NCBI RefSeq assembly: GCF_022808815.1
Contig: NZ_JAKZLC010000001.1
Coordinates: 1 to 64,000 of the forward strand
Direction of reading: 5' to 3'
DNA from: Geothrix paludis
Lineage (GTDB): Bacteria > Acidobacteriota > Holophagae > Holophagales > Holophagaceae
Length of the DNA stretch: 64,000 bases
Shown one piece after another: positions 42,041 to 61,398 of this stretch (the stretch's first letter is position 1; every line of letters begins with the position of its first letter). The notes under the pieces were generated by a model, which was not told where the DNA came from, made no database searches, and worked only from the letters and a program-made list of their open reading frames with translations. Both the position numbers and the translations under genes were made by a program.

Positions 42041-42066
42041 ACCCCAGGTGAACGACGGGCTGGCGG

Positions 42067-42816
42067 CTATTTTCCGGTCAGCTTGGCATCCTCGATGATC
42101 ACCGCGTAGGTGTAGCCGGCGCCGAAGTCCTTGTCGGTCTGGACCACGCCGCGGATGGTCACGGTATCGCCCACGGCCACCTCAGCCTGGCTGGTGGCGG
42201 TGACGTCGTTCGTGCCTTTCTTCGGATCGCCGCTGCCGTCCTGGAGGTGCAGCCAATTCTTGCCCATGATGCCCTTGGTGAATTTCACCACCTTGGCGCG
42301 CAGCGTGACGCCCTTCCCCTTCAGGTTCTGTTTCTGGGCCCAGATCTCGGCCACGGTGCGGGCCTCCGCGCCGGCGGCTTTGGCCACCTTCCCGACCTTC
42401 ACGGGCTTGGCGGGGCGCCCGGCCTGGCCGTGGGGATTGGCGCCAGCCGCCGGAGCCGCGCCCGGGGTGGCCAGGGTGCCGAAGTAGACCTCGGCGAAGG
42501 TCCGCTTCAGGGTCTTGGATTCGAAGTTCGTCATCAGCACGGCGTTGGCGACCGTGACGTCGGAGCCCTTGTCGGCCTTGGCCTCGGGGACGGCGGTCCA
42601 CAGCTCGCCCTTGGCTGTCTTCAGGCGGAGGTAGCAGTAGGGCGAGGCGTCGAGACGTTCGAGCACCTTGCCCGTCAGATCCTCACCCTTGGGGATCTGG
42701 GCTCCCGTGGGATGGGGCGCGGGCGACGAGGCCTGGGGCGGGGTGGCCGCCGCGGCGTCCGAGCTGAAACCCGCCATCACCGAAGCGGCGAGAAGAAGGG
42801 AGAGGGCGCTGGACAT
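42067..42816 (-). CDS. exported OB-fold (NrfJ-related) protein
   Basis: 249 residues. A signal peptide (SALSLLLAASVMAGFSSDAAA) is followed by two OB-like halves. The first half (about 45-110: GKVLERLDASPYCYLRLKT and NFESKTLKRTFAEVYFGTL) resembles NrfJ-related proteins that accompany cytochromes. The second (about 160-249) reads as a nucleic-acid-binding-type OB fold (LKGKGVTLRAKVVKFTKGI and VAVGDTVTIRGVVQTDKD). A His/Gly-Lys linker separates them. A periplasmic role near haem proteins is plausible from context only. Confidence 0.75.
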   Translation of the reverse strand: MSSALSLLLAASVMAGFSSDAAAATPPQASSPAPHPTGAQIPKGEDLTGKVLERLDASPYCYLRLKTAKGELWTAVPEAKADKGSDVTVANAVLMTNFESKTLKRTFAEVYFGTLATPGAAPAAGANPHGQAGRPAKPVKVGKVAKAAGAEARTVAEIWAQKQNLKGKGVTLRAKVVKFTKGIMGKNWLHLQDGSGDPKKGTNDVTATSQAEVAVGDTVTIRGVVQTDKDFGAGYTYAVIIEDAKLTGK

Positions 42817-42897
42817 GGGGAGTTCCTTTTGTGGATGAAATGTAAGGACCGGCTGCGCCAGCGCGGAATGATTCCGGTTGGTCGTGGGGCCCGCTGA

Positions 42898-44358
42898 TCA
42901 GGCGGCCGGATGGGGGTGCATCTTCGGCATCTTTGCCCCCAGGTGGCCGAAGTGCTTGCCGTAGGCGGCCATCATCTCCTTGCATGCGCTCAGGAGGTAG
43001 CGGCGCTTGAAACCGTCGGGAAGGGCCCGGATCTGGGGGATCTTCTGGGCGTAGAAGGTCATGTAGCAGCGCCCCAGGGCGATGGCGACCTCCTCGAGCG
43101 TCATGTCGTAGGGCTCGATGATCGGGGTGGACAGGTTGTATTTGGAGTAGTCGTGGACGCGCACGCGGTCCTGCATCTGGTCGTAGAGGGGCGTGAAGGG
43201 CATGGGCGTCAGGACGGGGAACACCGCGATGTCGGGGTTCATCCGGATGGCGACCTCGATGGTGCGGTCGATGGAGGCCTGCGTCTCCGTGGGGTGGCCG
43301 ATCATGAAGGAGGCTTCAGTGACGATGTCGTGCTCGCGGGCCAGGCGGATGGCCTGGGCGATGGCGTTCACATCGTTCCCCTTGTTGAGGGAGGCCAGCA
43401 GCTCGTCCGTGCCGGCCTCGGCCCCGATGTAGAGGTGCACCACGCCCGCTTCCCGGTACTTGGGCAGCAGGTCCGCGTCGCGCACCACGTCCTCGGCGCG
43501 GGTCTCCATCAGCAACCTGATGCCCAGCTTGGCCTCGATGATGAGGTCGAGAAGCCGCTCCCAGCGTCCGCGGTCATGAGTGGGGTATGGGTCGATCATC
43601 GTGATGGATTCGACGGCGTAGCGGTCCACGAGCAGGCGGATCTCCTCGATGACGTCCTCCGGCGTCCGGGCGCGCCAGTCGCCCCGCCAGAAGGCCCGGT
43701 GGCTGCAGAACGAGCAGCCCATCATGCACCCGCGGGAGGTGAGGATGGAGGCCATGCGACCCGGCGGATCGATGCGGTAGCGGTAGGCGTCCCAGTCCAG
43801 CAGGTGCCAGGCGGGCTTGACTGCGTCAAGGTCCGTGATGTGCGGGCGGGTCTCGGTGACGATGACCTCGTCGTCGCGCAGGAAGGCGAGGCCGCGGACG
43901 CCATCCAGCACGCCACCCGGAAGGGCCGCCAGCAGCTCGGGGAAGGTGGCTTCCGCCTCGCCGCGCAGGACGATGTCCACGGCCCGGGAGGGATCCCGCA
44001 GAAGCTCGGAATATTTGAAGGTGGGGAAGGGGCCGCCGATGAGCGTGGTGATGGCGGGGTCCACCGTCTTGGCCAGGCCCAGGGCCTTCATGGCGGCGGG
44101 CACCACCGCCGTGCTGATGGCGCCGGTGACGGGCAGGTAGTCGTAGGCCACGACGACATCCGGGCGGTACTGTTCCACCTCCGCGCGGATGGTTTCGAAG
44201 CTGGCGCCATCCCGGTTCATGGCGTCGTAGATGCGGGCCTCGTGCCCCACCCCTTCGACGGCTCCGGCCAGGTAGGCGATCTGGAGCGGCGGCCAGGTGC
44301 CGATGACCTCCACCCCCCAGCTGGAGTAGGGCGGCACCACGAAAAGGACCTTGCTCAC
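42898..44358 (-). CDS. B12-binding-domain radical SAM protein
   Basis: 486 residues. An N-terminal cobalamin-binding Rossmann-like domain (about 1-150, VLFVVPPYSSWGVEVIGTWP and IAYLAGAVEGVGHEARIYDA) precedes a radical SAM domain (about 195-420) with cluster motif CMMGCSFC (CxxxCxxC), which ligates a [4Fe-4S] cluster binding SAM. Later helices and a C-terminal region to 486 are variable. Family members include BchE, HpnR-type methylases and enzymes making membrane-spanning lipids. Which reaction applies here is unclear. It follows the ccsA gene, convergent with nothing obvious, so co-transcription with the cytochrome operon is possible. Confidence 0.85.
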   Translation of the reverse strand: MSKVLFVVPPYSSWGVEVIGTWPPLQIAYLAGAVEGVGHEARIYDAMNRDGASFETIRAEVEQYRPDVVVAYDYLPVTGAISTAVVPAAMKALGLAKTVDPAITTLIGGPFPTFKYSELLRDPSRAVDIVLRGEAEATFPELLAALPGGVLDGVRGLAFLRDDEVIVTETRPHITDLDAVKPAWHLLDWDAYRYRIDPPGRMASILTSRGCMMGCSFCSHRAFWRGDWRARTPEDVIEEIRLLVDRYAVESITMIDPYPTHDRGRWERLLDLIIEAKLGIRLLMETRAEDVVRDADLLPKYREAGVVHLYIGAEAGTDELLASLNKGNDVNAIAQAIRLAREHDIVTEASFMIGHPTETQASIDRTIEVAIRMNPDIAVFPVLTPMPFTPLYDQMQDRVRVHDYSKYNLSTPIIEPYDMTLEEVAIALGRCYMTFYAQKIPQIRALPDGFKRRYLLSACKEMMAAYGKHFGHLGAKMPKMHPHPAA

Positions 44359-44429
44359 GACGTCACCCTCATTGCCTTTCGCAACATCATTCTGGGGTCA
44401 AAGGTGGCGGAAATAGTCACAATCCCCGG

Positions 44430-45257
44430 TCACTGGAAGTAGGCGGCGTGAAGCGAGGGCACCAGGAAGGGAAAGATGAAGGCCGTGAGGATGGAGACCC
44501 CGAAACAGCCGATGGTGAGCCAGGCCGTGGACCGCGAGCCCAGGCGATAGAACAGCCGAAGGTGCAGCAAGGTGCCGAAGCAGAGCCAGGTCACGAGCGA
44601 CCAGGTCTCGATGGGATCCCAGCCCCAGTAGCGGCCCCAGGACTGATGGGCCCAGATGGCGCCCGCGATGATGGTGGTGGACCAGAACACGAAGCCGAAG
44701 CCCACGAAGCGGATCATGGAGGCATCCAGGACCTCCGCAGCGGGGAACCGCTCCAGGAAGCGGCTGGTGGCGCCCTTGAGCTTCCTCAGGAGGAGGACCG
44801 CCGCAGAGAAGGCCAGCAGGAAGGCGCCCACCGCCAGCTTGGTGAAGAAGATGTGGAAGATCAGCCAGGTGGAGCGCAGCGTGGGTGGGAGGTCGCGGGC
44901 CTCGGGGCTAGTGAGCAGGCCCAGGCCCACCATGAGGATCGCGACGGGGAGGACCACCAGGGCCAGCCCGGCCCAGCTGGGTCGCCGCCACAGCACGATG
45001 AGCAGCATGAGGATGGCGATCCAGGCGTTGGAGGACAGCACTTCGTACTTCAGCATGTAGGGGCCGTGGCCCACCTCGATCCAGCGGATGACGAGGGCCG
45101 CCCCGTGGGGCAGGAGGCCCAGGGCCGCGACCCCGCGAGCCCAGCGGACCCGCGCGGGGTGGTCCCAAAGCAGGGCGTGGGTGAAGAGGATGGCGGCCAG
45201 GGCGTAGACGCCCACGGCCGTCCAGTGGAGGAGGGTCTCCTGGAGGAAGGGGTTCAT
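44430..45257 (-). CDS. ccsA: System II cytochrome c biogenesis protein CcsA (ResC)
   Basis: 275 residues, about eight membrane helices. It contains the haem-handling tryptophan motif in AIWAHQSWGRYWGWDPIETWS (quoted in part: SWGRYWGWDPIETWS), between helices, plus flanking conserved His that ligate haem. With ResB it forms the haem export and attachment complex for c-type cytochromes. It overlaps the preceding lipoprotein gene by 4 bp (ATGA), in one operon with resB. Confidence 0.93.
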   Translation of the reverse strand: MNPFLQETLLHWTAVGVYALAAILFTHALLWDHPARVRWARGVAALGLLPHGAALVIRWIEVGHGPYMLKYEVLSSNAWIAILMLLIVLWRRPSWAGLALVVLPVAILMVGLGLLTSPEARDLPPTLRSTWLIFHIFFTKLAVGAFLLAFSAAVLLLRKLKGATSRFLERFPAAEVLDASMIRFVGFGFVFWSTTIIAGAIWAHQSWGRYWGWDPIETWSLVTWLCFGTLLHLRLFYRLGSRSTAWLTIGCFGVSILTAFIFPFLVPSLHAAYFQ

Positions 45258-45799
45258 GGCTTCGCCCCCTGCGGCGCGGGTGGGGTGATCATGCCGTGGG
45301 CATCCTTGGCGTCGATGGTCCAGGGAACTTCCTTCCGGCCCACTTTGGGCGGGGTGGTGAACCTGGTCTCCTCCACCAGCCAGGTGCCCTTGTGGTAGCT
45401 GAAGCGGTAGAGTATCTCGTAGTGGTCCACCGAGGCTTCACCTACCTGCCGGCCTGTGGCGGTCTGCACGTCCCGGTATCGCCACTGCTCCCGCGTGTAG
45501 ACCTGGAGGTCATCCCCGGCCTGCTCGACCTTCGTCACCTCCAGTTCTTCCAGGCGGGCATCCAGGGTGAGGCCCATGTCCATGCGCACGCCGATGAGGC
45601 CGAGGAGGCGCTTGCCATCCGGCGCGTCCGGTCCCACCACCTCGTCGATGAGACGGACATCGTTCTTCCGATAGGCCTCGCTCACCACCTGGTTGTAGCG
45701 GGTCACCAGCATCCTGGCCTCGCCGGAGGACACCCGCGAGCACCCGAGGGCCAGGGGAAGGGCCAGGACCGCCAAGGCAAGGAACATCCGCATGATCAC
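45254..45799 (-). CDS. small lipoprotein of the cytochrome maturation operon
   Basis: 181 residues. Lipobox ALPLALGC predicts lipid attachment. The mature part has a beta-rich fold resembling NTF2/Tim44-like domains (VTRYNQVVSEAYRKNDVRLI, YEILYRFSYHKGTWLVEETR). It sits between resB and ccsA with overlaps of 4 bp on both sides (GTGA and ATGA), so it is translationally coupled and probably a ResB/CcsA accessory. No known family is certain. GTG start at 45799 or ATG at 45793. Confidence 0.75.
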   Translation of the reverse strand: MIMRMFLALAVLALPLALGCSRVSSGEARMLVTRYNQVVSEAYRKNDVRLIDEVVGPDAPDGKRLLGLIGVRMDMGLTLDARLEELEVTKVEQAGDDLQVYTREQWRYRDVQTATGRQVGEASVDHYEILYRFSYHKGTWLVEETRFTTPPKVGRKEVPWTIDAKDAHGMITPPAPQGAKP

Positions 45800-47079
45800 A
45801 CCTCACCTCCATGGTCGCGCACTAGGCGCTCGAACCGCTCCCGGAACAGGGGGGCGAAGCGGTGGGGCCGCAGGGCCACCACCACCCTCTCGAACTCGCC
45901 TTCAGGCGTGACGGCCACCAGCTCGTCCACCCGCGTCACGCCGTAGGTGAGGGCCGCCCCCAGCAGGGCCAGGGCGAAGCCCAGGTAGGCCAGCCCGATG
46001 GCGGGGTCGTGGTTGCCGTGGAGCCGGGCCCAGTAGGGGAGGCCGTGCAGCTTCAGCGCGCCGCCCCCGGGCAGGGGCAGGCTCTCGCCGGGCCGCAGGG
46101 GGCCCTCCGCCAGGGTGGCGGGGCCGTCGAGGACGCGCACCTCCGCTAGGCCGGGGCGGCTGCCATCCCCGGGCATGGGCACCCGGATGCGGGCGCGCAG
46201 GTGACCCGGGCCCTGAGAGTAGGCTCCGAAGGCGACGGCCTCCTTCTTCTCCAGCAGGACGGCGGTCCGCTGGGGCGGCTCGGCGGGGAGACTCCATTCC
46301 ACCAGGGCCGCCGGGCCGTGCTGGTTGTCCGCGTAGAGGCGGCCCCGCGGCACGGGCAGGTCCTGGTTGATGCCCATCTCGCGCATCTGGTCCCCGTTCG
46401 ACGCCACCTCCGCCAGCTGCAGGCGGAGGGTCCGCAGATCGCCACCGCCGTAGCGCGTGCTCTCCACGGACACCAGGCGCAGGGGGGTGTCCAGGTGGAA
46501 GGGCGAGCCCAGGGGCCCGGGCCACTGGGCCCCCCAGGCCTCCACAGTGGGCGGGAGCACCTCCCCCTCGTAGAGGTCCACCACGGAGCTCACGCCGAAC
46601 ACGGCCTGGAGAGCGCCGGCGAGGATCACGCAGAGCAGGCCCAGGTGGAACAGGGGCGAGCCCGCCAGGCCCAGGCGGCCGCGGGTCCGCAGCGTCGTGG
46701 CAGCCCCCGAGGAGGGCCGCGTGAATTCCGCGCGGAAGGGGGCGCCGCGGAAGGCACCCTCCGTGGGGGTGAGTTTCCACTGGGCGGCCAGGCGGCGGAT
46801 CTGCTCGACCACCACGATGGACAGGGACACAGTGGCGAAGCCCAGCGCGACCAGGAAGAGCGGGCTGGTGAATACGTGGTCCAGGGCTAGGTGGTCGACT
46901 AGGGCGTTGACGAAGGCACCGTGGATCCGTAGATGCGCGGCCTTATCCGCGGGAGCCACGCCCGCCTGAGGCAGGGTCGCTCCCAGGCCGCCCAGCAGCG
47001 TGATGCAAAGCAACTCCCCGACGATGGTCGCCGGGGAGCGGAAGACGCGGCGCAACGTGTGTGTCCAGCTTTGGGTCAT
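45796..47079 (-). CDS. resB: System II cytochrome c biogenesis protein ResB
   Basis: About 427 residues. Four membrane helices (three near residues 20-40, 75-100 and 155-175 and one near 375-395) with a large periplasmic loop, characteristic of ResB/Ccs1; the second helix region reads LFLVALGFATVSLSIVVV. It brings apocytochrome and haem together with CcsA. The start is uncertain: ATG at 47079, or a GTG at 47115 overlapping the previous stop (GTGA). It is directly downstream of the 13-heme cytochrome gene. Confidence 0.85.
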   Translation of the reverse strand: MTQSWTHTLRRVFRSPATIVGELLCITLLGGLGATLPQAGVAPADKAAHLRIHGAFVNALVDHLALDHVFTSPLFLVALGFATVSLSIVVVEQIRRLAAQWKLTPTEGAFRGAPFRAEFTRPSSGAATTLRTRGRLGLAGSPLFHLGLLCVILAGALQAVFGVSSVVDLYEGEVLPPTVEAWGAQWPGPLGSPFHLDTPLRLVSVESTRYGGGDLRTLRLQLAEVASNGDQMREMGINQDLPVPRGRLYADNQHGPAALVEWSLPAEPPQRTAVLLEKKEAVAFGAYSQGPGHLRARIRVPMPGDGSRPGLAEVRVLDGPATLAEGPLRPGESLPLPGGGALKLHGLPYWARLHGNHDPAIGLAYLGFALALLGAALTYGVTRVDELVAVTPEGEFERVVVALRPHRFAPLFRERFERLVRDHGGEV

Positions 47080-47111
47080 GACAATCAAGCCGCCATGGTC
47101 GGTGGGTCGAG

Positions 47112-50100
47112 TCACCAAGGCTCGTTGGCCGCGGGTACGGCACTGTGTTGGCTATCGCAGGCCGCCTGGCAGTATTTATCTGTATAACTCGACATGGAGG
47201 AGGCCTTCTGGAATCCCTGGATCTGCATATTGTTCAGGTTGTTCTGATAGGCGTATCGGGTGGGCATATTGGTGCGATCGCCAATGAGCCGCGAGCGCAA
47301 GCTGCCGTGGGGGATGACCACATGGCAGTCATAGCAAGGGTAAGAGAGGTGGTGGCCCCCGTGGGGGTCGTTGGAGAAGGTGGTGTGGCAATTGGCACAC
47401 CAGCTGGTGGAGAAATTCTGGAGGGTCACATTCGGCCAGTTGGCGGAGTTGGCGCCTTTGAGCATGAACTGGTTGGCAGATCCGTGGGGGCCCTGGGCTG
47501 CGGCGCCATCCGTGTTGTGGCAATCCGAGCACATCATGGTCTGATTGCCCACGTTGGTGACCCAGGGCGAGCCTGAAAGCATCTGGGCCTGGACCAGGGC
47601 CTTGGGGGCGTAGCTCCCGGTGTAATTGTTCAGGCTGGCCACGACGGGATGACCGGAACGGTTATTGGGGTTGAACTCGCGGGCCACATCCGTCTCCTGG
47701 AAGAGGACGGGTGAGGCGAGGTTGAACCGGGCGATTGTGCTGGTCTGTCCGAAATTGGCGCTCAGGGTCAGGTGGGTGGCGTCGGTCACGGAAGAAATGG
47801 TGTAGGCCGTCCCGCCCACGGCCTGGATCTGCCCGCCCACAAGGGCGGATGTCCAGTTGGTGCCGTAGCCGACGACCGCGGTTTTGCCGTTGGAGAAGCT
47901 GGCGCCGGGGTGGATATAGAAGTCCTGGGGTGTCGTGGAGGTGGTGGCGGTGGTGATGGTGAGGCTGGTGGCCGATGAGGCCGTGATCTGGTAGGAATTG
48001 GTGTTGCCGGAGGTCATGGCGAAGAACTGGCCGACCAATCCAGTTCCAGGGGTGCTCCCCACCGGCCAAGTGGTGCCGTAGCCTGTGACGGTGGTTGTGC
48101 CCGTGATGGCAGCGGCGTCGCGGGTCTCGTAGGCCACGTAGGCCGTGGTGGTCTGGCCGTAGATGGCGGAAATGGTCAGGGACGTGGTGGTGGAGGCGGT
48201 GACTCGGTAGGTGTTCACGGTGCCGCCCACGGGGCGGACGTACTGGCCCGCCATGTTGGTCGTGGTCCAGTTCGTGCTGGTGCCGTTGACCGTCTGGCTG
48301 TTGTTGTTGAACTTCGCCGTGCCCACGCCCGCCACCCAGGGCTGGGTGCTGCCGCTGACCAGAGTCAGGGTGCTGGTGCCGCCGGAAGTGATGCCGTTCG
48401 GCGGTGTGCTGCCGAAGGAGTAGGCGGTGTGGCACTTGAAACACACCTCGTACTCGTAGGTGGCGGTCGGGGTGGCGGTGAAGTTGGAGGCGGTGGGGGA
48501 AACCCAGAGCGCCGGGTAGGGGCTGTACCGCACACCGTCGACGCCCATCAGCGGCCCGCTTTGGACCGTGGTGCCGTTCATGATCTGGTTGCGCGTGAGG
48601 GTAGCGGTGGTGGTGTAGGTGTGCGAGCCTGCCACGGCTTTGTGGGGATTGTGGCAGTCGGCGCACATGACGGTGCGTCCGCTGGTGCGCTCCACGGGGT
48701 GGTGGATGGGCTTGATAATCTCCTGCTGGATGTTGGGCACGACCTGGTTTCCGCCCGTGGTGTTGATCTGCCCATTGGCGTCGTGGCAGGCCAGGCAGAG
48801 GTCCGAAGGGTCGTCCACCAGCAGCTTGGCGTATTTGGCCGATGTGGTCCGGGCGTCTGGCCAGCCGTGGGGATCGTGGCAGTTCACGCAGGTGGCGCGC
48901 TTGGCCGCATCCGTTGAGTAGTTGAACGCGGGATAGGTGCTCAGGCTGGAGGCAGGGGTGGACGTGGAGGGCGTGACCCACTGGCCGCCGGGCCACAGCA
49001 CCCCCTTGGTGGGGTCGAAGTGGACGCCCTTGTTGGTGGCGACCTTGGCGTAGGTGTGGCAATCGTCGCAGAGGGGGTTGGTGCCGGCGGCGGCGCCCGT
49101 GGCCTCGGCCCGCAGCAGGTTCCCGTTAGCCACCGGGGCGCCATGAATGTCGTGGCAGGACTGGCATTCCACATTGGAGGTGACGCTGAGCTTGGTGATC
49201 CCGGTGATCGGGGATGTGGCCTTGTTGTAATCGGACGTGGCGGGCAGGGGAAGCGTGATCGGATGGCTGGTACCGCCCTTGGCCGTGACATTGCGGGGGG
49301 CGTGGCAGTCCACGCACATCTGATCTGAGGTGTTGGGCAGGCGCTGGAAGTGCCGGCCGGCGCTGCCGGGGCTGATTCCCGCGGCAGCGGGATCGAAGGG
49401 CGCGTTCGCCTGCAGGTGCTGGTCATGGCAGGTGGAGCACATGAGCTGGCCGTTCTGCATCCGGGTGCTCAGCGCCGTGTTTACCGGTCCCTGAAGGTCG
49501 GGCCGCGCGTAGATCAGGTAGAGGTCGCCGGCGATGAAGGAGGGGTTCGCGGAGCCGTTGACGAATGCCACGGAAATGCCAGTGCTGCCAAGAGCGACAG
49601 GGGCAGTCGAGGTGAAGGTGCCGGTGGTGGCGGTGCCCCAGGCGCTGGTCCCGTTGACCGTCATCTGCCAGTCGAATGTGGCGGCTCCGGCTTGGCCCGC
49701 GGCGTTGATCTTGATCTGGACGGTGGTCGGGTAGGCTCCCGTGTAGTCGCCGGACAGGACGAGGCTACCCGTGGACGTATTGGGGGAGCCCTTGATCACG
49801 CGGCCAGCGGCGCCGGAATCCCAGCGGTGGGACGTTCCGGTGGGCGCGGTCCCGGTCGGGAGGCCTCGCGGAGGCAGAGCCTGGTCAGTGGGGGCGAAGG
49901 TGTGAGTGGTGGCCACCCGGCCGCCGGTGACATGGCAGCTCAGGCACAGGTTCGCGTTGCCGGCCGTGTAGGTAAGCGTCCCGCCCAGAGCCCCATGGGT
50001 CATATGGCAAGGGGTGCAGTAGTTGAGCGCACCGTAGCTGTTCGCCATCGAGATGTTGTGTGGCGGGTCGATCGCCAGCAGGGCCACGCCGGTGATGGCC

Positions 50101-51505: not shown

Positions 51506-51536
51506 GGGATGACCTCCAGGGGACGGGCTGCATAGA

Positions 51537-51546
51537 GGGGGGGGGG
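51537..51546 (-). repeat. C10 tract in the leader of the leftward NHL gene
   Basis: Ten consecutive G on the plus strand (C10 in the sense strand), ending 32 nt before the NHL start codon. Homopolymers of this length are prone to slippage. Similar tracts precede the tetraheme and 42-heme genes. Confidence 0.85.
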
Positions 51547-51631
51547 AGTCCTCGGGAGAAGGCCCGGGACACCAGGAGCATAGGGCGGAATGAGGTTTAA
51601 GGATGAGCAGATGATCTATGCTGTGTAACAC

Positions 51632-51652
51632 GCAACAGTTGCGAGCTGCAAC
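51632..51652. promoter_or_regulatory. candidate operator with three GCAAC/GTTGC half-sites
   Basis: GCAAC-A-GTTGC-GAGCT-GCAAC contains two overlapping palindromes (1-bp and 5-bp spacers). It is central in the divergent control region, so it could bind a dimeric regulator of both operons. Confidence 0.4.
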
Positions 51653-52882: not shown

Positions 52883-52910
52883 GCAGCACCTTGCTGTTTC
52901 TCCCCACCCA

Positions 52911-52920
52911 CCCCCCCCCC
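52911..52920 (+). repeat. C10 tract in the leader of the tetraheme cytochrome gene
   Basis: Ten C, within a longer C-rich run, ending 20 nt before the tetraheme start codon and just upstream of the GAGGTGA ribosome site. Confidence 0.85.
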
Positions 52921-52939
52921 ACCACCCACGAGGTGAACC

Positions 52940-53593
52940 ATGAAATCCCTTCTCGTCGTCCTGCTGGCCGCCGGCTCCCTGAGCCTGTCCGCCGCGGGCA
53001 TCACCGGCACCAAGCATGACCTGAGCACCAACGCCCTTGCCGGCCAGGCGCACACGAACACCACCCAGGTCTGCGTGTTCTGCCACGCCCCCCACAATGC
53101 CGCTTCGAGCACGGCCCAGCTCGTGCCTCTGTGGAACCGGAAGTTCCAGGGCGCCACCCCGTCCTTCACCCTCTACAGCAGCGCGACCCTGACCTCCACG
53201 CCCACCCAGCCCACCGGAGCCAGCCTGGCCTGCTTCACCTGCCATGACGGCACGACCTCCGTGGGCAACCTCATCAACATCCCCTCTGACGTCGCTTCCA
53301 TCTCCTACACGGCCGGTGGCAATGTCAATGCGAGCGGCGTGCTGGGCGGGGCCGCGGCTCTCGGCACGGACCTGAGCAACGACCACCCCGTGTCCATGAC
53401 CTACCCGACCAAGACCGGCCTGGTGGTCCCCACCGTGGCGGGCTCGACCTCTAATGTCGGCGGCCTTCCCCTCTTCAGCAGCAAGGTCGAGTGCGCCAGC
53501 TGCCACGACGTGCACAGCAATGCGGTCGCCGCGCCCTTCCTGCGCGCGTCCATGACCAATTCCGCGCTCTGCACCACCTGCCACATCAAGTAG
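52940..53593 (+). CDS. tetraheme c-type cytochrome, OmcE-like (candidate nanowire subunit)
   Basis: 217 residues. Signal peptide (KSLLVVLLAAGSLSLSAAG). Four CxxCH sites at residues about 45-49 (CVFCH), 98-102 (CFTCH), 185-189 (CASCH) and 211-215 (CTTCH). Extra histidines suitable as distal ligands are TKHDL (26), APHN (52), NDHP (149) and DVHS (192), giving bis-His coordination. The size, heme count and motifs (VCVFCHAPHN, SLACFTCHDG, NDHPVS) resemble OmcE of Geobacter sulfurreducens, which polymerises into extracellular cytochrome filaments. Filament formation here is inferred. It follows the NHL gene and precedes the outer-membrane barrel. Confidence 0.9.
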   Translation: MKSLLVVLLAAGSLSLSAAGITGTKHDLSTNALAGQAHTNTTQVCVFCHAPHNAASSTAQLVPLWNRKFQGATPSFTLYSSATLTSTPTQPTGASLACFTCHDGTTSVGNLINIPSDVASISYTAGGNVNASGVLGGAAALGTDLSNDHPVSMTYPTKTGLVVPTVAGSTSNVGGLPLFSSKVECASCHDVHSNAVAAPFLRASMTNSALCTTCHIK

Positions 53594-53677
53594 TCCAGGC
53601 ACTGCGACACGCATGATGCGCGGGGGGTGGTTCCACCCGCCCCCCGCTTTTTCGACCTCCTTTTCCGAAGGTCTGCC

Positions 53678-55456
53678 GTGAGGCTTGGAACATTCACGCT
53701 GCTTCTCGCGGGCGCGGCCATCGCCGGGCGGGCGGAGGACTGCCCTCTGGTGCTGAACCAGCGGTTCCAGCTCCGCTACAACCAATGGCAATCCAGCCAG
53801 ATGTCCAGCACTTCCACCACCCAGGCCATCTACGAGGTGGATGCGGGCATCCCCATCTTCACGTATCGCCTGGGCGCCCTGGCTCTGAACGGGGCGGTGG
53901 AATACAACCGCCTGGCCTACAGCAATGAGTCGGGAGCCGATCTGGGACTGAACCGGTACGGGGCCCGCGTCAGCCTGTTCCCCTATCGTCCGTTCCGCCT
54001 CTATCTGGACTACCAGCACACCCAGTCCCCGGATCTGCTGGGCTCTGGATCGCTGAAGGGCGAAACCTGGGGCGGGGGGATTCGTTACGCCAACCGATTC
54101 CTCGGCGATACCTTCCTCACTTATCGCCATGGCGACGCCAGGCTGGAGGGAGGAGCCACGCCGGGGGCCTATCGGGATGAATGGGCCCAGTGGAAACTGG
54201 AGACCCACCACCGCCTTCAACAGACTCAGATCGATTTCGAGGCTCTCCGCCAGGACTACCGACCGCTCGACACGCCGGCCTGGAGATTCATCACCCTGCA
54301 TCTGGACACGGACACTCTTCTTGCCCGGGACTGGAAGCTTCGCACCCGATCCCAGGCACAGGATTCCGGACTCAGCCGCTGGTCCGATTTCAACGCTTCG
54401 TTCTACGGCCCCATCAGTGGCGCCTGGCACTCCTTGACCAGCGCGTCCATCGGGTCTTCGACCCAGGACAAGGTCCACACGACCACCAGCTTCACGTCGG
54501 AATCCCTGGTGTACGAAGTCCGAAAATGGCATGCCCACCTTACGGGAAGCTACAGCGGGAACGACACGCCGGCCGAATTCCGGAGTGAACGCACGAGCGC
54601 GCTTCTCGTGGGCGGGTCCTACGCCGTGAGTCCCGAATGGAGGCTCCATGGAGACGCGGGACTGTCGTACTTCCAGCAGTCCCTCGTAACCGACGACAAT
54701 GCCAAGCGTTTCACGTCCCTGAACCTGGGTGTCGCCCGAGGGGGAGATGTGCCGGAGCTGATCCGCCACAGCCTCTTTTTCCTCAGCGATTGGCGCTTCG
54801 ATCAGAGGGTGCGCGAGGAATATCCGCCGGATTTCGTGCCGACTGAGTTGGCTCAGGAGATGCTCAGGCGGCGGATGCGCCAGACCGGGTCCTTCGCATT
54901 CACTGCGGACGTGTGGCGCATGAGCGACAGTGGAACAGGCGGGACGTTGGATTGGGCCAGGATCACGGGGCAGGTGCTAACCAGGAGTGACCTGTCCGTG
55001 TACCTGATGGGGGATTTCAAGCACGACAAGGGTCTCGCCCGACCCGGCTTGGAGCTTCGCAACAGCGATTTCCTGGTGAACGGCTCGTATCGGCTGGGAC
55101 TCACCACATTGACCGCATCCATGGGATACAGCGATGACCGCGAGAGCCAGGCCGTGGCCTCGACGTGGAGTCCGGCGCCTGCCCTGGGGAATCAGAGCGG
55201 CCTTAGCCGGCGCTACACCGCGGGCGCCACGACCCGGCTCTGGAAGGTTCCGGTCGGCGTGCTGATCCTTCGGTACGATGCCTCCATGGTTCCCGCCACA
55301 ACCACCGTGTCCACATGGGCCGACTTGAGCTTCCGCCAGGTCTCCCTGCGTGTCCGGTACCAGACTTCACGCACGGATGGCGGCCTCCGCAACGACAGCA
55401 TCAATGTGGATCTGCTGCGTTGGTTCGACGCGATCTGCATAAGGAACTGGCGATGA
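53678..55456 (+). CDS. outer-membrane beta-barrel of a porin-cytochrome system
   Basis: 592 residues. The GTG at 53678 gives a clean signal peptide (LGTFTLLLAGAAIAGRA); an earlier start is unlikely. The mature protein is rich in alternating strands with aromatic girdles, for example YRLGALALNGAVEYNRLAY and RPFRLYLDYQHTQSP, and ends in a short strand-like WFDAICIRNWR. It is the size of MtrB/OmbB-type barrels that hold periplasmic and extracellular cytochromes together, but no N-terminal CxxC is visible. Its stop overlaps the octaheme start (ATGA at 55453), so a stoichiometric partner is likely. Confidence 0.85.
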   Translation: MRLGTFTLLLAGAAIAGRAEDCPLVLNQRFQLRYNQWQSSQMSSTSTTQAIYEVDAGIPIFTYRLGALALNGAVEYNRLAYSNESGADLGLNRYGARVSLFPYRPFRLYLDYQHTQSPDLLGSGSLKGETWGGGIRYANRFLGDTFLTYRHGDARLEGGATPGAYRDEWAQWKLETHHRLQQTQIDFEALRQDYRPLDTPAWRFITLHLDTDTLLARDWKLRTRSQAQDSGLSRWSDFNASFYGPISGAWHSLTSASIGSSTQDKVHTTTSFTSESLVYEVRKWHAHLTGSYSGNDTPAEFRSERTSALLVGGSYAVSPEWRLHGDAGLSYFQQSLVTDDNAKRFTSLNLGVARGGDVPELIRHSLFFLSDWRFDQRVREEYPPDFVPTELAQEMLRRRMRQTGSFAFTADVWRMSDSGTGGTLDWARITGQVLTRSDLSVYLMGDFKHDKGLARPGLELRNSDFLVNGSYRLGLTTLTASMGYSDDRESQAVASTWSPAPALGNQSGLSRRYTAGATTRLWKVPVGVLILRYDASMVPATTTVSTWADLSFRQVSLRVRYQTSRTDGGLRNDSINVDLLRWFDAICIRNWR

Positions 55457-56679
55457 GACATCGGCCGTCGTTCAGACTGTTCCGAGGCCTTGCCGTCGGT
55501 TTGGCGATGGGTCTGGCGATGAATCCGGGGTTCGCCCAGGTCGGGTCCACAGGTGTCGCTTCGGCCAAGGCGCCAACCCGGAGTGGGATCTCGTTGGTTC
55601 ATGGGGCCTGCCTGACCTGCCACAAAAATCATCGCGGGAGCGGGCGCACCAGCCAGAAGCCGGCTCGCGAGGCGACAGACCAGCTGTGCCTGTCCTGCCA
55701 TGAGGGGACGAACACCGCTCCCAGCGAGGGATTCGCCCCCAAGCTCTCGAGCTGGAGCGGCCAGGGCTCCGGTCACACGAAGGAACGGTTCAGTTCCCGC
55801 CGGCCCGGTACCTACGTCCGTTCGGTCCAGGTCAATCCATCCAGGCAGATTCGCCTGACTCAGGATTGCTCCGGTTGCCACGATCCCCATGGGAAGGAAC
55901 GCGGCAAACTCCGCAACACAGCCTTCGATGACCGTGGCCGATTGCTGGACCGTCATCCTCAGTCCACGGCCGACATCTGCTTCGGATGTCATGCCGGTCC
56001 GGAGGCGGCACCCCTCACATCCGGCAACGCCGACATCGGTCAGCTGTTTGGAAAGGGTGCTCCTTCCTCCCACGGCATTGGAGCCACCGCCGCGAGCCAT
56101 CCGGAACTGCCCAGTTTGCGCGCATCAGCCTTCCAGGGGCGGCTGGACTGCACCTCCTGCCATGACAATCCCGATCCGACGGGTGCCCGGGGGCCGCACT
56201 TTTCGATCAATGCCGCCCTCCTGAAGGCTTCCTTTGGCCATGAGAAGGACATGGGGCGCCTGGGAGAACGCGCCAACGACCTCTGCCATCTCTGCCATGA
56301 CCGGCAGTCCATCCTCGCCAACCAATCTTTCCCCTTCCACGCCCAGCACCTGAGTGGGTTCACCAACAGCGGCTCAATGGCCGCTCAGCGACAGGTGCCG
56401 ACTCTCTCCGAGGCGGCGGCGGTGCTGGGGCTGCGCTCACCGAAGGACCTCCGTCCCGGGCGGAGCGGCGCCTTCCAGCCGGGCTACGGCGAGCCGACCG
56501 CCTGCGCCACCTGCCATGCCTCCCATGGTTCCCTGCGGCAGGCAGCCCTCATCGAGTTCGACCGCTCTGTGGTGACTGCTTCTTCGGTCGGCGGGCCGTC
56601 CTTCCAGCGGTCGGGCCTCGGCCACGGCACCTGCACCCTGAGCTGCCACGGCTACGACCACGTGCAGACGCGCTATTGA
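55453..56679 (+). CDS. octaheme c-type cytochrome, probable partner of the barrel
   Basis: 408 residues. Signal peptide (LAVGLAMGLAMNPGFAQ). Seven standard haem sites: CLTCH, CLSCH, CSGCH, CFGCH, CTSCH, CHLCH and CATCH, plus one CX3CH site near the C-terminus (CTLSCHGYDH), giving eight haems if the latter is used. The overlap with the barrel gene suggests a periplasmic cytochrome inserted in or docked to it, by analogy with OmaB/MtrA. It precedes the parvulin gene. Confidence 0.9.
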   Translation: MRHRPSFRLFRGLAVGLAMGLAMNPGFAQVGSTGVASAKAPTRSGISLVHGACLTCHKNHRGSGRTSQKPAREATDQLCLSCHEGTNTAPSEGFAPKLSSWSGQGSGHTKERFSSRRPGTYVRSVQVNPSRQIRLTQDCSGCHDPHGKERGKLRNTAFDDRGRLLDRHPQSTADICFGCHAGPEAAPLTSGNADIGQLFGKGAPSSHGIGATAASHPELPSLRASAFQGRLDCTSCHDNPDPTGARGPHFSINAALLKASFGHEKDMGRLGERANDLCHLCHDRQSILANQSFPFHAQHLSGFTNSGSMAAQRQVPTLSEAAAVLGLRSPKDLRPGRSGAFQPGYGEPTACATCHASHGSLRQAALIEFDRSVVTASSVGGPSFQRSGLGHGTCTLSCHGYDHVQTRY

Positions 56680-56715
56680 TCGCGGGTCATTCAGGCGTTC
56701 TTCCAGGAGCTTTCC

Positions 56716-58272
56716 ATGCATGACGCCCCCTCGTTGCAGAATGGCTTCACCCGGATCCAGATGGCGATCCTGGTGGGCGCGCTCGGGCTGGGTCCTGCCG
56801 TGACGGCGGCGCCCGCCCTGCGTTCGATCCGCACAGTCGATGCCGAGGCGGAACACCTGAAGGCGATCCGGGCGGCGGAGCCGGGCCTATCCGCCGAGGC
56901 CGCGAGAGCCAGGCTCGCCCGGCTGGAGAAGGCCTGGGCGCTGGCTGGGACCAGAGGGCTCCTGAAGGCGCCAGAGTGGCAGGAACGCCGTCAGGAGGGT
57001 CGCCTTGCCGTGCTGGGGAGGGCCTTCCTCGACTCCCGGCCGGGTCATGCCGGCATGACCGAGGCGCAGGTCAAGGCCGCCTTCCTGGCCCAGGGGGAAG
57101 AACGTCACGTGTCGCACCTCCTGTGCAAGACCCGGGAGGAGGCCGAGGCGGCCCTGAAGCGCATCCAGGCAGGAGAGCCCTTCGAGAAGGTGGCCGCCGA
57201 GGTTTCCGTGGATCCCAGCGCGGCCCAGAACAAGGGCGACCTGGGCTGGATCCGGCAGAAGCAGCTGGTGCCTGCCTTCGGCAGTCCCGTGTTCGCTGCT
57301 CCCGTGGGCGCGCCGGTGGGCCCCATTCAAAGCGAGTTCGGCTGGCATGTCGCCAAGGCCTGGGAAGCCCGGCGTGAGACGGAGGTGGACTTCGCCGCGC
57401 AGCGGGAAACCCTGCTGAAGGAGGCGGCGGCCGCCCAGACGAAGATGAAGCGGCAGGCGGCCCTGGACGCGCTGCGTCCCCGGTATCCACTGGTTCCCGA
57501 CCTGGCCGTGCTGGGCGCGGACCGCACCACGGAGATCCTGCCGGGCGATGAGCGCAAGGTGGCGGGCCGGGTGGCCGGGACGACCATCAGCCTGCGGCGG
57601 CTCAAGCGGCATCTGGTCGAGGTGCTCAGGACCATGGGCCAGAGTCATTCGCTGGGTGCCGCCACGAAGGCTGAGTTCATGGAGGGCGTGGCGGACCAGA
57701 TCCGTCTCGCCGCCGCGGCCAGGAAGCAGGGGCTCGACCGGAAGCCCGGGGTTCAGGCCGCCCTCTGGCTGGACGAGCGGGAGCGCGCGTACTCCCGCTA
57801 CGCCGAATCCTACCTCGCCGAAGCCCAGGTGCCCGAGGTCAACCTGGCGGAGCACCACGAGGCTTTCCCGGACCGCTTCCGGCAGGTGGGCGCCTTGCGC
57901 CTGCAGGTGCTGGTGGCCGATTCCAAGGACGAAGCGGACGCGGCCCTGAATGAGGTGCGGACGGGTCTGCCCTGGCGAGAGGCCGTGGCGCGGCACGCCG
58001 ACGCGGAGGCCACGGGCAACCCCGAACCCGGCTGGGTGGAGGTGGCCTCACTCCAAACGCTGGTGCCCCCCACGCTCATGCAGGCTCTCCTGGCAGGACC
58101 CCTGGGCCAACCGGTGGGCCCCATGCTGGGCCCGGATGGCTTCATGATCTTCAATGCCCTGGAGCGGCGTTCCGGTCCCGTGATGCCGCTGGACGAATGC
58201 CGCGAGGCCGTGCGGGCGGACTACCTCAAGGCGCACGGCCCCGACCTGGTGGAGCGCAGCCTGGGCGACTAA
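56716..58272 (+). CDS. double-parvulin peptidyl-prolyl isomerase (foldase)
   Basis: 518 residues. A hydrophobic N-terminus (QMAILVGALGLGPAVTA) suggests export. Two parvulin (PpiC) domains: one at about 125-225 (RHVSHLLCKTREEAEAALKR, GDLGWIRQKQLVPAFGSPVF) and one near 390-490 (LRLQVLVADSKDEADAALNE, EPGWVEVASLQTLVPPTLMQ), with a helical chaperone-like part between. PpiC-type isomerases are encoded beside cytochromes in Geobacter cytochrome clusters and may fold the haem proteins or filament subunits. It is the last gene before a terminator. Confidence 0.88.
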   Translation: MHDAPSLQNGFTRIQMAILVGALGLGPAVTAAPALRSIRTVDAEAEHLKAIRAAEPGLSAEAARARLARLEKAWALAGTRGLLKAPEWQERRQEGRLAVLGRAFLDSRPGHAGMTEAQVKAAFLAQGEERHVSHLLCKTREEAEAALKRIQAGEPFEKVAAEVSVDPSAAQNKGDLGWIRQKQLVPAFGSPVFAAPVGAPVGPIQSEFGWHVAKAWEARRETEVDFAAQRETLLKEAAAAQTKMKRQAALDALRPRYPLVPDLAVLGADRTTEILPGDERKVAGRVAGTTISLRRLKRHLVEVLRTMGQSHSLGAATKAEFMEGVADQIRLAAAARKQGLDRKPGVQAALWLDERERAYSRYAESYLAEAQVPEVNLAEHHEAFPDRFRQVGALRLQVLVADSKDEADAALNEVRTGLPWREAVARHADAEATGNPEPGWVEVASLQTLVPPTLMQALLAGPLGQPVGPMLGPDGFMIFNALERRSGPVMPLDECREAVRADYLKAHGPDLVERSLGD

Positions 58273-58288
58273 GACCCGCCTTGAAGGC

Positions 58289-58320
58289 GCCAAGCCCCCG
58301 GGTGACCGGGGGGCTTTGGC
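58289..58320. terminator. bidirectional terminator between convergent EET genes
   Basis: Arms GCCAAGCCCCC and GGGGGGCTTTGGC pair around a short loop. It separates the parvulin gene from the 42-heme cytochrome gene. No long T-run follows. Confidence 0.7.
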
Positions 58321-58353
58321 ATGGGGGCGGACAGTTCCCCCGGGAACGCGACC

Positions 58354-61300
58354 CTAGGTGTGGCAGGCGTCGCAGCCGGAGACGGCCAGCAGCTTCGGGC
58401 TCTTGGAGAAGTGGGGCTGGTGGCAGGAGAGGCAGGTGAGGGGCTTGCCGGTGGCCTTGACAGTGCGGCCTGAGGTCGGATGGTTGGCCACCGGGTGGCC
58501 AGCCTTCTTGTCCTTGTGGCAGTTCAGGCAGAGGGTCTGGACCTCGCCGCGGGGGAAGCCCTTGGCGTCGCCGCCGTGGGCTGTGTGGCAGGTGGCGCAG
58601 AGGCCGTCCATTACGGGCTTGTGCTTCGAGACCGCCTTGTTGGCTTCGTCCCGCAGGCCGTCGTGGCACTGGAGGCAAAGGTCCTTGGGGTTGCCGGCCA
58701 GGAGGGAGGGCCGGGTGGAGGCGTGGGGCGTATGGCAGGCGGTGCACTCGCCGTTGGCCACCGGGGGATGGGGGAAGGCCTTCTTGGCGGCCGTGGCCAC
58801 GCCGTCATGGCAGTTGAAGCAGAGGCCAGGCATGGCTTCGTTGGTCGCGAAGGGCTTGGGCGCGGCGCTGTCCGCATGGCAGGTGCTGCAGTCGCCCGCG
58901 GCCACCGGCGGGTGGGCGGTGGCCTTGAGCATGCCGTCGTTGTTCGAGCCGTGAGGGTCGTGGCAGGTGGCGCAGTCCTTGGCGGACACGGGGTAGCCCT
59001 TGTGGGCCTTCTTCAGGTCCCCGGCGTCGTGGCAGCTGACGCACAGCTCCTCCATGGGCTGGAGGAGGCCCTTGGCCAGCTTGCCCGTGTGGACGGCGTG
59101 GCAGCTGAGGCACTCGCCGGAGGCGGCGGGCTGGTGGGCGTGCTTCGACTTCACCGCCGCGGCGATGGAGGTGTGGCATCCCAGGCACAGGTCCAGGGGC
59201 TTCTGGCGAAGCAGGTGCTGGGCCTCGGTCTGGTGGGGCGCGTGGCAGTCTCGACAGCTGCTGTCCAGATAGGGCTTGTGCCCCCAGCCGCCCTTGGGCG
59301 CCTCGGCCTTCTCGTGGCAGGTGAGGCAGACCTGGCTGCCGGGCTTCTCCAGCAGGGCTTCGGTCTTGGAGGCGTGGGGACGGTGGCAGGACAGGCACTC
59401 GCCGCCCTTGAAGGGCTGGTGCTGGGTGGCGCCGGCCTTGGGCTCCAGGTCCGCGTGGCAGGTGCGGCAGAGCTGGGGCACGGGCTGGTCCAGGCGGGGC
59501 GTGCCCGCCGGGAGCTTGGCGCCGGGGGCCGGGGAGGCATGGCAGTTGGCGCAGTTCTCCAGGAAGGGCGGGTGGGCGCCCTTGAGGATCAGGCCCTTCT
59601 TCGTCGAAGTGTGAGGCTCGTGGCAGCCCAGGCAGTCCACCTTCGCCAGCGAGCTGGTGAGGTGCTTGCGGCCCAGGGCTTCGTCCGCAAGGTCATGGCA
59701 GGTCGCGCAGGTCTCCTGGATCCGGGGGGAGGCTAGCAGGGCCAGCCCGTCGCCGGAGTGGGGGCTGTGGCAGCTGCTGCACTGGCCGTCGTTCACGGGG
59801 GAGTGCACGACCTGGAACTTGTCCTTGCGGGTGTGGCAGGTGTAGCAGCCTTCGGGCTGGTCCCGCTTCAGGAACTTGGCCTGATCGCCGCCGTGTGGAT
59901 CGTGGCAGGCGAGGCAGCCGCGCTTTCCGGTGGCGGGCTGGTGTTTCACATCGCCCTTCATCAGGCCGGCATGGCAGGCGGTGCAGAGCTTGTCGGTGTC
60001 GTCCTTCACGAGCTTCGCGAGCGCGCCGCCGTGGGGTGTGTGGCAGGCGCTGCACTGGCCGTTCTTCACAGGAGCGTGGAGCACCTTGCGCTTCACGATC
60101 TTCTCGTGGCAGGCGCCGCATGCGGCCAGCTCGCCGCCTTTGATGAGCTTGGCGGAAGCTGAGGCGTGGGGCGTGTGGCAGGCGAGGCACTGGCCCTTCT
60201 TCGCCGGGGCATGGAGGACCTCACCCTTCGCCACGCCGGTGTGGCAGGTGGCGCAGAGCGTCTCGCCGGCCTGCTTGAGAACCGGGGGGGTGGCGGTGGC
60301 GTGGGCCCCGTGGCAGACGAGGCAGTCACCCTGGGCGGCCGGCGCGTGCTGGCTCTTGCCCTTGACGAGGTCCTCGTGGCAGGTGAGGCACAGCTGCTTC
60401 GCGGGCGCGGTGAGGAGGGCCTTTTCCTTCGAGTCGTGGGGCCGGTGGCAGTCCATGCAGGCGCCATCCCGGAAGGGTGGATGCAGGGACTTCCCCTTGG
60501 CGAGGTCCGTGTGGCAGCCGGCGCACAGCTCTTGGGGCGGGGCCGTGAGGAGGCCCTTGGCGTCCCCGGCATGGGGCCGGTGGCAGGTGAGACACTTCCC
60601 ATCCTTCGCCGGCTGGTGCTGCACGCCGGGGCCGGGCAGGGGGCCGTGGCAGTCGAGGCACAGCTCTGTTACGGGCTTCGCCAGCTTCACGGCACCGCCG
60701 GCGGCGGGCGCATGGCAGTCGGCGCAGGAACCCGGCGCGAAAGGGGCGTGCTGACGGTCGCGCAGGAGGCCCTTGGCCGCGCCGCCGTGGGGGTTGTGGC
60801 AGGTGGCGCAGGCCTCCGCCTTCAGTGGGAAGCCACCGTGGGTCTTCGAGAGGCCGGCCACGTCGTGGCAGGTATCGCACTGACCCGGGACGCCCGCCTT
60901 GAGGAGGCTGCGCGTGGCCGAGGGATGGGGCTGGTGGCAGGCCAGGCAGTCGTCCGTGGCCGGATGGGGATGGGCCGACGTGGTGCGGGTCTTGATGTCG
61001 GCGTGGCAGGAGAGGCACAGTTCCTGGGTGTCCTTCCGGAGCAGGCGCTTCCGTCCCGTGTCGTGGGCGCCGTGGCAGGCGCCGCACTCGCCCTTGGATT
61101 CGAAGCGGTGCGCTGGGCGCTCATTGGCGGTCTGCTTGAACCCCTTGTGGCAGATGGCACAGAGCGCCCGGCCCCCGCCCTCGTGGAGGAGGTTGACGTT
61201 CGCCGCGCCGTGGGGCTTGTGGCACCACTGGCACTTCCCGTCGAGCAGGGGCTTGTGGGCCGTGGTGGGAGAGGCGGCCTGACGGACCTTGGGATGGCAA

Positions 61301-61398
61301 TCCTGGCAGGTTCGGGGCGTGTCCGCGGCCCGGCAGGGTACGAGGCCTGCCAGCAGGGCGAGCAGAAGGAAAGCGAGGGTCCGGCGTGGAGGGGTCAT
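58354..61398 (-). CDS. 42-heme c-type cytochrome
   Basis: 1014 residues, exported (RTLAFLLLALLAGLVPCRA). I count 42 CxxCH haem sites, one per 24 residues, evenly spread from CQDCH near residue 32 to the last CDACH close to the C-terminus. About every second site is followed by a PH or AH (CxxCHxPH, as in CQWCHKPH, CLTCHRPH, CSACHTPH), so nearly each haem has a nearby His partner. The core of the protein is built from a repeating pair of sites spaced by charged, Lys-rich linkers, indicating tandem duplication of a two-haem unit. No other domain is visible. Start at 61398, since the signal peptide begins there; the frame is open farther upstream. Probably periplasmic or surface, a long electron conduit. 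Confidence 0.95.
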   Translation of the reverse strand: MTPPRRTLAFLLLALLAGLVPCRAADTPRTCQDCHPKVRQAASPTTAHKPLLDGKCQWCHKPHGAANVNLLHEGGGRALCAICHKGFKQTANERPAHRFESKGECGACHGAHDTGRKRLLRKDTQELCLSCHADIKTRTTSAHPHPATDDCLACHQPHPSATRSLLKAGVPGQCDTCHDVAGLSKTHGGFPLKAEACATCHNPHGGAAKGLLRDRQHAPFAPGSCADCHAPAAGGAVKLAKPVTELCLDCHGPLPGPGVQHQPAKDGKCLTCHRPHAGDAKGLLTAPPQELCAGCHTDLAKGKSLHPPFRDGACMDCHRPHDSKEKALLTAPAKQLCLTCHEDLVKGKSQHAPAAQGDCLVCHGAHATATPPVLKQAGETLCATCHTGVAKGEVLHAPAKKGQCLACHTPHASASAKLIKGGELAACGACHEKIVKRKVLHAPVKNGQCSACHTPHGGALAKLVKDDTDKLCTACHAGLMKGDVKHQPATGKRGCLACHDPHGGDQAKFLKRDQPEGCYTCHTRKDKFQVVHSPVNDGQCSSCHSPHSGDGLALLASPRIQETCATCHDLADEALGRKHLTSSLAKVDCLGCHEPHTSTKKGLILKGAHPPFLENCANCHASPAPGAKLPAGTPRLDQPVPQLCRTCHADLEPKAGATQHQPFKGGECLSCHRPHASKTEALLEKPGSQVCLTCHEKAEAPKGGWGHKPYLDSSCRDCHAPHQTEAQHLLRQKPLDLCLGCHTSIAAAVKSKHAHQPAASGECLSCHAVHTGKLAKGLLQPMEELCVSCHDAGDLKKAHKGYPVSAKDCATCHDPHGSNNDGMLKATAHPPVAAGDCSTCHADSAAPKPFATNEAMPGLCFNCHDGVATAAKKAFPHPPVANGECTACHTPHASTRPSLLAGNPKDLCLQCHDGLRDEANKAVSKHKPVMDGLCATCHTAHGGDAKGFPRGEVQTLCLNCHKDKKAGHPVANHPTSGRTVKATGKPLTCLSCHQPHFSKSPKLLAVSGCDACHT

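Follow-up and report, generated by a model that had tools for sequence, protein, structure and literature searches.

The window considered here, meaning the whole 64,000-nucleotide stretch of Geothrix paludis (NCBI RefSeq assembly GCF_022808815.1, contig NZ_JAKZLC010000001.1, positions 1 to 64,000), contains a unit of multihaem cytochrome and accessory genes, ~19.8 kb in length, that probably encodes a cytochrome nanowire of the OmcE/Uet (undecahaem) type along with a socket for it in the outer membrane and dedicated helpers for cytochrome maturation. This reading is favoured because genes for a second ResB, a 42-haem cytochrome and a radical SAM protein are confined to genomes with the cluster, and because gene order is conserved, recurring wholly or partly in several other Geothrix genomes. 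Cultured representatives G. fermentans DSM 14018 and G. terrae SG184 carry the cluster in the same order, which argues against its being a product of misassembly. An initial annotation of the sequence had proposed a periplasm-to-exterior conduit, a filament and a haem-loading supply within one regulon, and its inventory was largely borne out: the cytochromes with 13, 4, 8 and 42 haem sites are all present (the octahaem as seven CXXCH and one CX3CH), as is the gene order it suggested comparing among Geothrix genomes, and open reading frames (ORFs) and domains were verified for two NHL propellers, a barrel whose gene overlaps that of the octahaem, a double parvulin, ResB/CcsA and the radical SAM protein.

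In the proposed pathway, electrons would pass from inner-membrane carriers, not encoded in the locus, to a periplasmic wire formed by the 42-haem protein, and from there to an octahaem cytochrome held in a 28-strand MtrB-like barrel; onward transfer would be to a filament of OmcE-type tetrahaem subunits, for which the octahaem would provide the docking base, and to a surface 13-haem cytochrome, with Fe(III) minerals, electrodes or partner cells as the final acceptors. The NHL propellers and parvulin would serve folding and export, whilst ResB/CcsA would attach haem alongside a putative BchE-like radical SAM enzyme. The sequence itself gives no direction of flow, and carriage of the cluster by G. 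fermentans, a known Fe(III) reducer, argues against a locus working inward; electron uptake is thus considered quite unlikely. In its favour, for Uet such inward flow has been proposed both in iron-oxidising Gallionellaceae and in Tenderiales grown on a cathode, the gene content partly matches Uet (PMC10734462), and the parts are reversible in principle.

The filament candidate

The case for a filament lies in the tetrahaem cytochrome. When searched against solved structures with phmmer, it returned OmcE (7tfs, E 2.6e-36) and a multihaem protein (9yuq_N, E 1.8e-27), with nothing else significant, and similarity to OmcE spans the full length. The four CXXCH motifs and four further distal histidines, the number expected for four bis-His haems, are invariant and in OmcE order across Geothrix, another class of Acidobacteriota and Geobacter OmcE. 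OmcE is a known filament in which one haem ligand is supplied across subunits (PMC12954529); entry 9yuq holds 16 copies of its chain and may likewise be a filament. As an OmcE homologue that keeps all eight haem-ligand histidines, the tetrahaem is well founded as a predicted filament subunit, in agreement with the filament of the initial annotation. No copy of the tetrahaem gene was found on plasmids.

A porin-cytochrome conduit without a filament, in which the tetrahaem stays monomeric at the surface and barrel, octahaem and 13-haem cytochrome carry electrons out, would follow a known layout (barrel, octahaem and surface cytochrome, as in Mtr and the porin-cytochrome conduits, PCC) and would suit the match of the barrel to MtrB. 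It is nonetheless judged unlikely, given that the best solved relatives of the tetrahaem are the OmcE filament (PMC12954529) and 9yuq, perhaps also a filament, and that all ligands are kept, necessarily including the one shared between subunits.

The barrel and the predicted octahaem anchor

The conduit of the initial annotation likewise finds support, in the form of a modelled barrel and a translationally overlapping octahaem gene. AlphaFold2, run on ten homologues (mean pLDDT 79, pTM 0.59), predicts a barrel of 28 strands with a helical insert. Among solved structures, MtrB of the Mtr complex (6r2q_B) ranks first and gives the longest alignment (Z 17.8 over 450 residues, rmsd 7.2), ahead of a runner-up at Z 15.7 over 338 residues. 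Foldseek alone places pilus ushers slightly above MtrB, as is expected for large barrels. A profile search of the Protein Data Bank with the barrel sequence returned nothing credible, and no sequence similarity to MtrB is detectable. The locus places a large outer-membrane barrel beside multihaem genes, as Mtr and PCC conduits do. The barrel gene and the octahaem gene that follows it share 4 nt, and overlap likewise in several relatives; an apparent fusion of the two in one other locus (L063) was rejected, its 972-aa ORF being a wrong-frame read-through of genes that overlap but are separate.

The place of the octahaem became clearer from a scan of 84,980 species' genomes with an OmcE profile, which gave more than 500 relatives among the matches listed, from which 79 loci in many phyla were kept (G. 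sulfurreducens itself was absent from the set, there being no near-identical OmcE match). In 39 proteins with 11 haems (one with 10), a complete OmcE domain (profile scores of 138-229 bits, all ligands kept in 38-39 of the 39) is followed by a domain orthologous to the Geothrix octahaem, and the terminal CX3CH haem site is common to the octahaem and all 38 complete fusions. A profile of the octahaem scored these fusions at 60-134 bits, a range that also takes in six further 11-haem proteins; other multihaems reached no more than 36.5 bits, with three exceptions: L070 and L100 are split versions, stand-alone octahaems with an OmcE gene directly upstream, whilst L071, a 13-haem ORF, has this CX3CH motif at its end. 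The two split versions lie on Thermoanaerobaculia and Nitrospirae contigs and are intermediate between the fused and scattered arrangements.

By these profile comparisons, the orthologue of the Geothrix octahaem is the C-terminal half of UetJ-like proteins, in which a complete OmcE domain makes up the N-terminal half; UetJ was equated with the 11-haem fusions by haem number, neighbours and domain make-up rather than against a reference UetJ. As the same octahaem is covalently fused to a single OmcE domain in other phyla, it is probably the conduit piece at which an OmcE-type filament starts and docks, the OmcE and octahaem halves of the fusion being separate genes in Geothrix. Anchoring of nanowires in the outer membrane, and their wiring to it, has been called speculative (PMC12307469); the split octahaem, together with the domain fusion in many phyla, offers a specific candidate for the socket.

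Several points weigh against a nanowire with its own socket. Firstly, homology to OmcE alone is no proof of polymerisation, and what cytochrome filaments do physiologically is itself disputed (PMC11077965). Secondly, the structure model of the octahaem is unusable (pLDDT 42) and lends no support to its fit in the barrel, and the match of the barrel to the ~650-residue proteins of generic Uet-type loci is weak by sequence (hhalign probability 81-94%), making that link suggestive only. Thirdly, in two genomes (G015, G017) barrel and octahaem belong to a second cluster that is separate from the main tetrahaem gene. Finally, 38 of the 47 Geothrix genomes have neither the second ResB nor the radical SAM gene, so if those 38 also respire extracellularly, the cluster is not the only route available to the genus.

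The large cytochromes

The 42 CXXCH motifs of the largest cytochrome are spaced 20-32 residues apart, at 24 residues per haem, in a protein with 88 histidines and a net positive charge. Its nearest solved sequence is 6r2q_A of the Mtr complex (E 5.4e-15). Full copies in relatives have 42 sites (43 in one). The gene occurs in nine of the 47 Geothrix genomes, all with an OmcE-type cluster: eight of the nine genomes with the second ResB, and G005, where it lies beside a tetrahaem gene but without a match to the second ResB or the radical SAM protein. The remaining second-ResB genome, G011, has its cluster on a short contig lacking the 42-haem gene. That this gene is cluster-bound and conserved is a new observation. 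An upstream ATG at 61,452 is unlikely to be its start, that stretch being indel-ridden in relatives.

In the four closest cluster genomes the 42-haem protein is 86-93% identical to that of the window, as against 40-56% for the 13-haem, 55-87% for the tetrahaem and 58-80% for the barrel. Surface cytochromes of Geobacter mutate fastest (PMC12977616), so the contrast suggests by analogy that the 42-haem protein is periplasmic and that the other three lie at the surface. At the ~8 Å per haem given by the rises of OmcE and OmcS (PMC12954529), an extended 42-haem chain is estimated at ~30 nm, enough to span the periplasm. The 13-haem cytochrome, the most variable gene product of the locus, keeps its 13 CXXCH in relatives, has 304 residues between two of its haem sites, and is probably extracellular. 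Two genomes (G008, G018) have two 13-haem types in tandem, of ~992-1011 and 833-864 aa, where others keep one.

Density of haem, histidine content and positive charge would also suit large cytochromes acting mainly as an electron store, with filament and barrel secondary, and PCC3 cytochromes have been suggested to serve as capacitors of this sort (PMC10734462). Against this, the 42-haem gene is strictly linked to the presence of the barrel and filament cluster in a genome, and storage as the main function is regarded as highly improbable.

Dedicated maturation genes

ResB is found in 45 of the 47 Geothrix genomes, nearly always as a housekeeping form of ~400 aa; the cluster type is restricted to nine genomes and lies inside the cluster. 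The radical SAM gene has exactly the same distribution, represented in two of the nine (G009, G011) by a 38%-identical relative in the same slot. This confinement of a second ResB and a BchE-like radical SAM gene to nine cluster genomes is likewise new, and supports the haem-loading supply first proposed. With ResB and a CcsA that has the WWD motif (155 bits to TIGR03144, below its cut-off), both System II components are present; a second PF01578 gene lies elsewhere in the genome.

The radical SAM protein scores 361.5 bits against the BchE model TIGR02026 over its full length, below the curated cut-off of 481.35, and is placed outside BchE in a small, long-branched tree; BchE proper was thus rejected. 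Relatives in two Geothrix and one Verrucomicrobia cluster score 371-424 bits, also below the cut-off. In Acidobacteriota and Verrucomicrobia, this position in nanowire clusters is taken by either of two BchE-related clades (L123, L049, L054). On the Verrucomicrobia contig L123, a homologous block of 13-haem, ResB, lipoprotein, CcsA, radical SAM and NHL genes sits beside a Uet-type cluster; the small lipoprotein-like protein, missing from the first gene list, is conserved to this contig at 54%.

That the BchE-like enzyme edits a tetrapyrrole, so that the dedicated ResB/CcsA load a modified haem into the cytochromes of the locus, is very unlikely; if true, nanowires would be tuned by a non-standard haem. 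A hidden unusual haem motif in the 13-haem protein, which would explain a dedicated lyase, was not seen: the conserved C-terminus of that protein contains Cys and His residues without any CXnCH.

Description of the OB protein as NrfJ-related was not confirmed by a family model, as it matches none in Pfam or NCBIfam. An OB profile is labelled in 13 of the 79 OmcE loci, recurring in OmcE/Uet loci of other phyla and lying directly upstream in Thiodiazotropha.

Regulation

Two CRP/FNR-like palindromes are candidate control sites. TGTGA-N6-TCAY, upstream of NHL2, is kept in six genomes (the window, G006, G018, G339, G008 and G009), and GTGA-N6-TCAC, upstream of the 42-haem gene, in five (the same without G009), where the surrounding DNA has diverged. 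Single matches to such palindromes are not rare by chance (0.3-0.7 expected per window), and it is their conservation that lends support. The single regulon of the initial annotation is plausible but not confirmed. No sigma-70-like promoter was seen in the divergent region.

Presence and absence of the unit and probable exchange of its interior

In about twenty Geothrix genomes the MazG and isocitrate/isopropylmalate dehydrogenase-family (Iso_dh) genes lie 6-2845 bases apart, compared with 20-26 kb, with the cluster between them, in the window, G006, G018 and G339. Clean empty sites were identified in G007, G025, G015 and G008 (L174-L177). Homology to empty sites ends at ~42,040 and resumes at ~61,849, and the flanks are contiguous in G007 and G015, with a join exact to a few bases. 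In G008, G015 and G017 the site is empty and the cluster lies elsewhere. Presence and absence of the unit between the same two genes across species, by gain through transfer or by loss, is reported here for the first time. The unit showed neither an integrase nor a tandem repeat, and its composition is like that of the rest of the window.

The interior has a different history from the ends. Compared with the window, G018 is 97% identical at the radical SAM protein, 92% at the 42-haem protein and 98% at the flanking Iso_dh, and only 55-58% at the tetrahaem, barrel and 13-haem cytochrome; compared with G. fermentans, it is 97, 92 and 86% identical at tetrahaem, barrel and 13-haem cytochrome, with ends at only 85-86%. 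Since its interior matches G. fermentans whilst its ends match the window, the cluster interior has most likely been exchanged between species and the ends have not. Set beside G018 (L050) and G008 (L043), window positions 45,796-56,679 appear as a swapped interior whose ends follow the chromosome, as in capsule loci. Nanowire systems could thus come, go and be swapped as blocks, which matters for predicting metal respiration from genomes.

Gene inventory

Positions and supporting matches are collected in Table 1. Two stretches of the PpiC-type protein pass the Rotamase_2 model. A minus-strand ORF at 51,677-54,769 (1030 aa) was rejected because it lies opposite NHL2, tetrahaem and barrel as a shadow ORF of GC-rich sequence. 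Elsewhere in the window, 24,001-26,034 is poor in G+C (45% against ~69% for most of the window) and is a possible defence island, within which a protein at 25,255-26,034 matches the TIR domain PF13676 at its cut-off; an 854-aa ORF at 29,653-32,217, within a region where strand skew is strong, has no clear Pfam family.

Table 1. Features of the cytochrome unit in the window, with positions, strands and supporting evidence.
Feature	Position	Strand	Evidence or remark
Whole presence/absence unit	42041-61849		~19.8 kb; flanked on the left by a short ORF that follows MazG and on the right by an isocitrate/isopropylmalate dehydrogenase-family gene
Secreted OB-type accessory protein	42067-42816	-	Two OB-like halves, judged by eye
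B12-binding radical SAM protein, BchE-like, not BchE	42898-44358	-	
CcsA-type haem lyase subunit, cytochrome c maturation System II	44430-45257	-	PF01578 E 2.7e-33; WWD motif
Small lipoprotein-like/NTF2-like protein between ResB and CcsA	45254-45793	-	TcaA NTF2-like match weak, E 0.0013
ResB, cluster-specific second copy	45796-47079	-	PF05140 E 5e-16
13-haem cytochrome	47112-50147	-	13 CXXCH
Secreted NHL beta-propeller NHL1	50144-51505	-	PF01436 E 3.9e-25
Divergent control region, ~310 bases	51506-51814		CRP/FNR-like palindrome at 51694-51709
Secreted NHL beta-propeller NHL2	51815-52882	+	PF01436 E 7.8e-27
OmcE-type tetrahaem, predicted filament subunit, UetA-like	52940-53593	+	4 CXXCH; 7tfs_A E 2.6e-36
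Outer-membrane beta-barrel, predicted 28 strands and helical insert (model residues 377-418)	53627-55456	+	AlphaFold2
Octahaem cytochrome, predicted conduit/anchor for filament	55453-56679	+	7 CXXCH and 1 terminal CX3CH
PpiC/SurA-type peptidyl-prolyl isomerase, two parvulin-like regions, putative UetB/OscH-like role	56716-58272	+	PF13145 E 1e-19 (two stretches); PF00639 E 5e-18
42-haem doubled-CXXCH cytochrome, predicted periplasm-spanning wire or electron store	58354-61398	-	42 CXXCH
CRP/FNR-like palindrome upstream of 42-haem gene	61740-61753		GTGA-N6-TCAC

Comparison with known systems

Judged by its genes, the closest described system is the Uet cluster, known from Tenderiales and Gallionella, and not the Geobacter porin-cytochrome conduit first named. 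Uet comprises the tetrahaem UetA, peptidyl-prolyl isomerase UetB, barrel UetC, NHL proteins UetHI, undecahaem UetJ and trihaem UetDEG (PMC10734462). The Geothrix locus has counterparts in its tetrahaem (UetA), parvulin (UetB), NHL propellers (UetHI) and octahaem (half of UetJ), and a candidate counterpart of UetC in its barrel, so that the tetrahaem, isomerase and NHL proteins by which Uet is defined occur together. It differs in three respects: 1) UetJ is split, leaving an octahaem without an OmcE domain and no undecahaem on one polypeptide; 2) no trihaem ORF is found among the genes of the unit; 3) the 13-haem and 42-haem cytochromes, ResB/CcsA, BchE-like radical SAM protein and OB protein are added. 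Among the OmcE loci surveyed, an NHL2-type gene is the commonest neighbour across phyla (73 of 79 loci), and a common generic layout consists of a tetrahaem, an NHL protein, a 5-haem protein, a haem-free protein of ~650 aa, a second NHL protein and an 11-haem protein. Most of the ~650-aa proteins begin with a signal-like stretch, and their ends are aromatic or basic in the manner of barrels. This layout fits the published system, in which tetrahaem, isomerase, barrel, NHL and undecahaem proteins are named.

The omcE loci of Geobacter and other Desulfuromonadia also combine an OmcE-type tetrahaem and NHL proteins with CcsA and ResB side by side. CcsA is present in all 14 loci read, and ResB is recognised in 11, the remaining three having an ORF of suitable length at that position; System II beside such genes is therefore not the rarity it had been taken for. 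They encode an 8-haem protein, a protein of ~710-806 residues and, for the most part, a trihaem and a 7-10-haem protein as well, and within the ~16-20 kb read no two-domain parvulin, octahaem of the present family or 42-haem gene was labelled. The osc operon, companion of omcS in G. sulfurreducens, resembles the Geothrix locus in that a filament cytochrome is encoded alongside proteins for folding and secretion and alongside OscI (GSU2495), a very large periplasmic cytochrome of 26 haems, but its filament is the hexahaem OmcS, unrelated in sequence to the tetrahaem OmcE type of Geothrix, and osc as described in PMC13194489 and PMC12977616 includes neither System II nor radical SAM genes. An osc-type operon was sought through the parvulin in Desulfuromonadia genomes, yielding only PpiC genes without such multihaem neighbours. 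A 42-haem protein, at first thought unusual, has precedents in the 26 haems of osc and the 21-27 haems of periplasmic PCC3 cytochromes (PMC10734462). PCC3 and the Mtr/PCC conduits share a large barrel of MtrB-like fold, with a long multihaem expected on the periplasmic side, but are without an OmcE-type filament, and the Geothrix barrel differs from that of Mtr/PCC in its 28 modelled strands and dissimilar sequence. The locus represents a variant within a known class of nanowire/conduit clusters, of most value for its split octahaem anchor, its cluster-bound BchE-like enzyme with its own System II, and its nature as an exchangeable unit.

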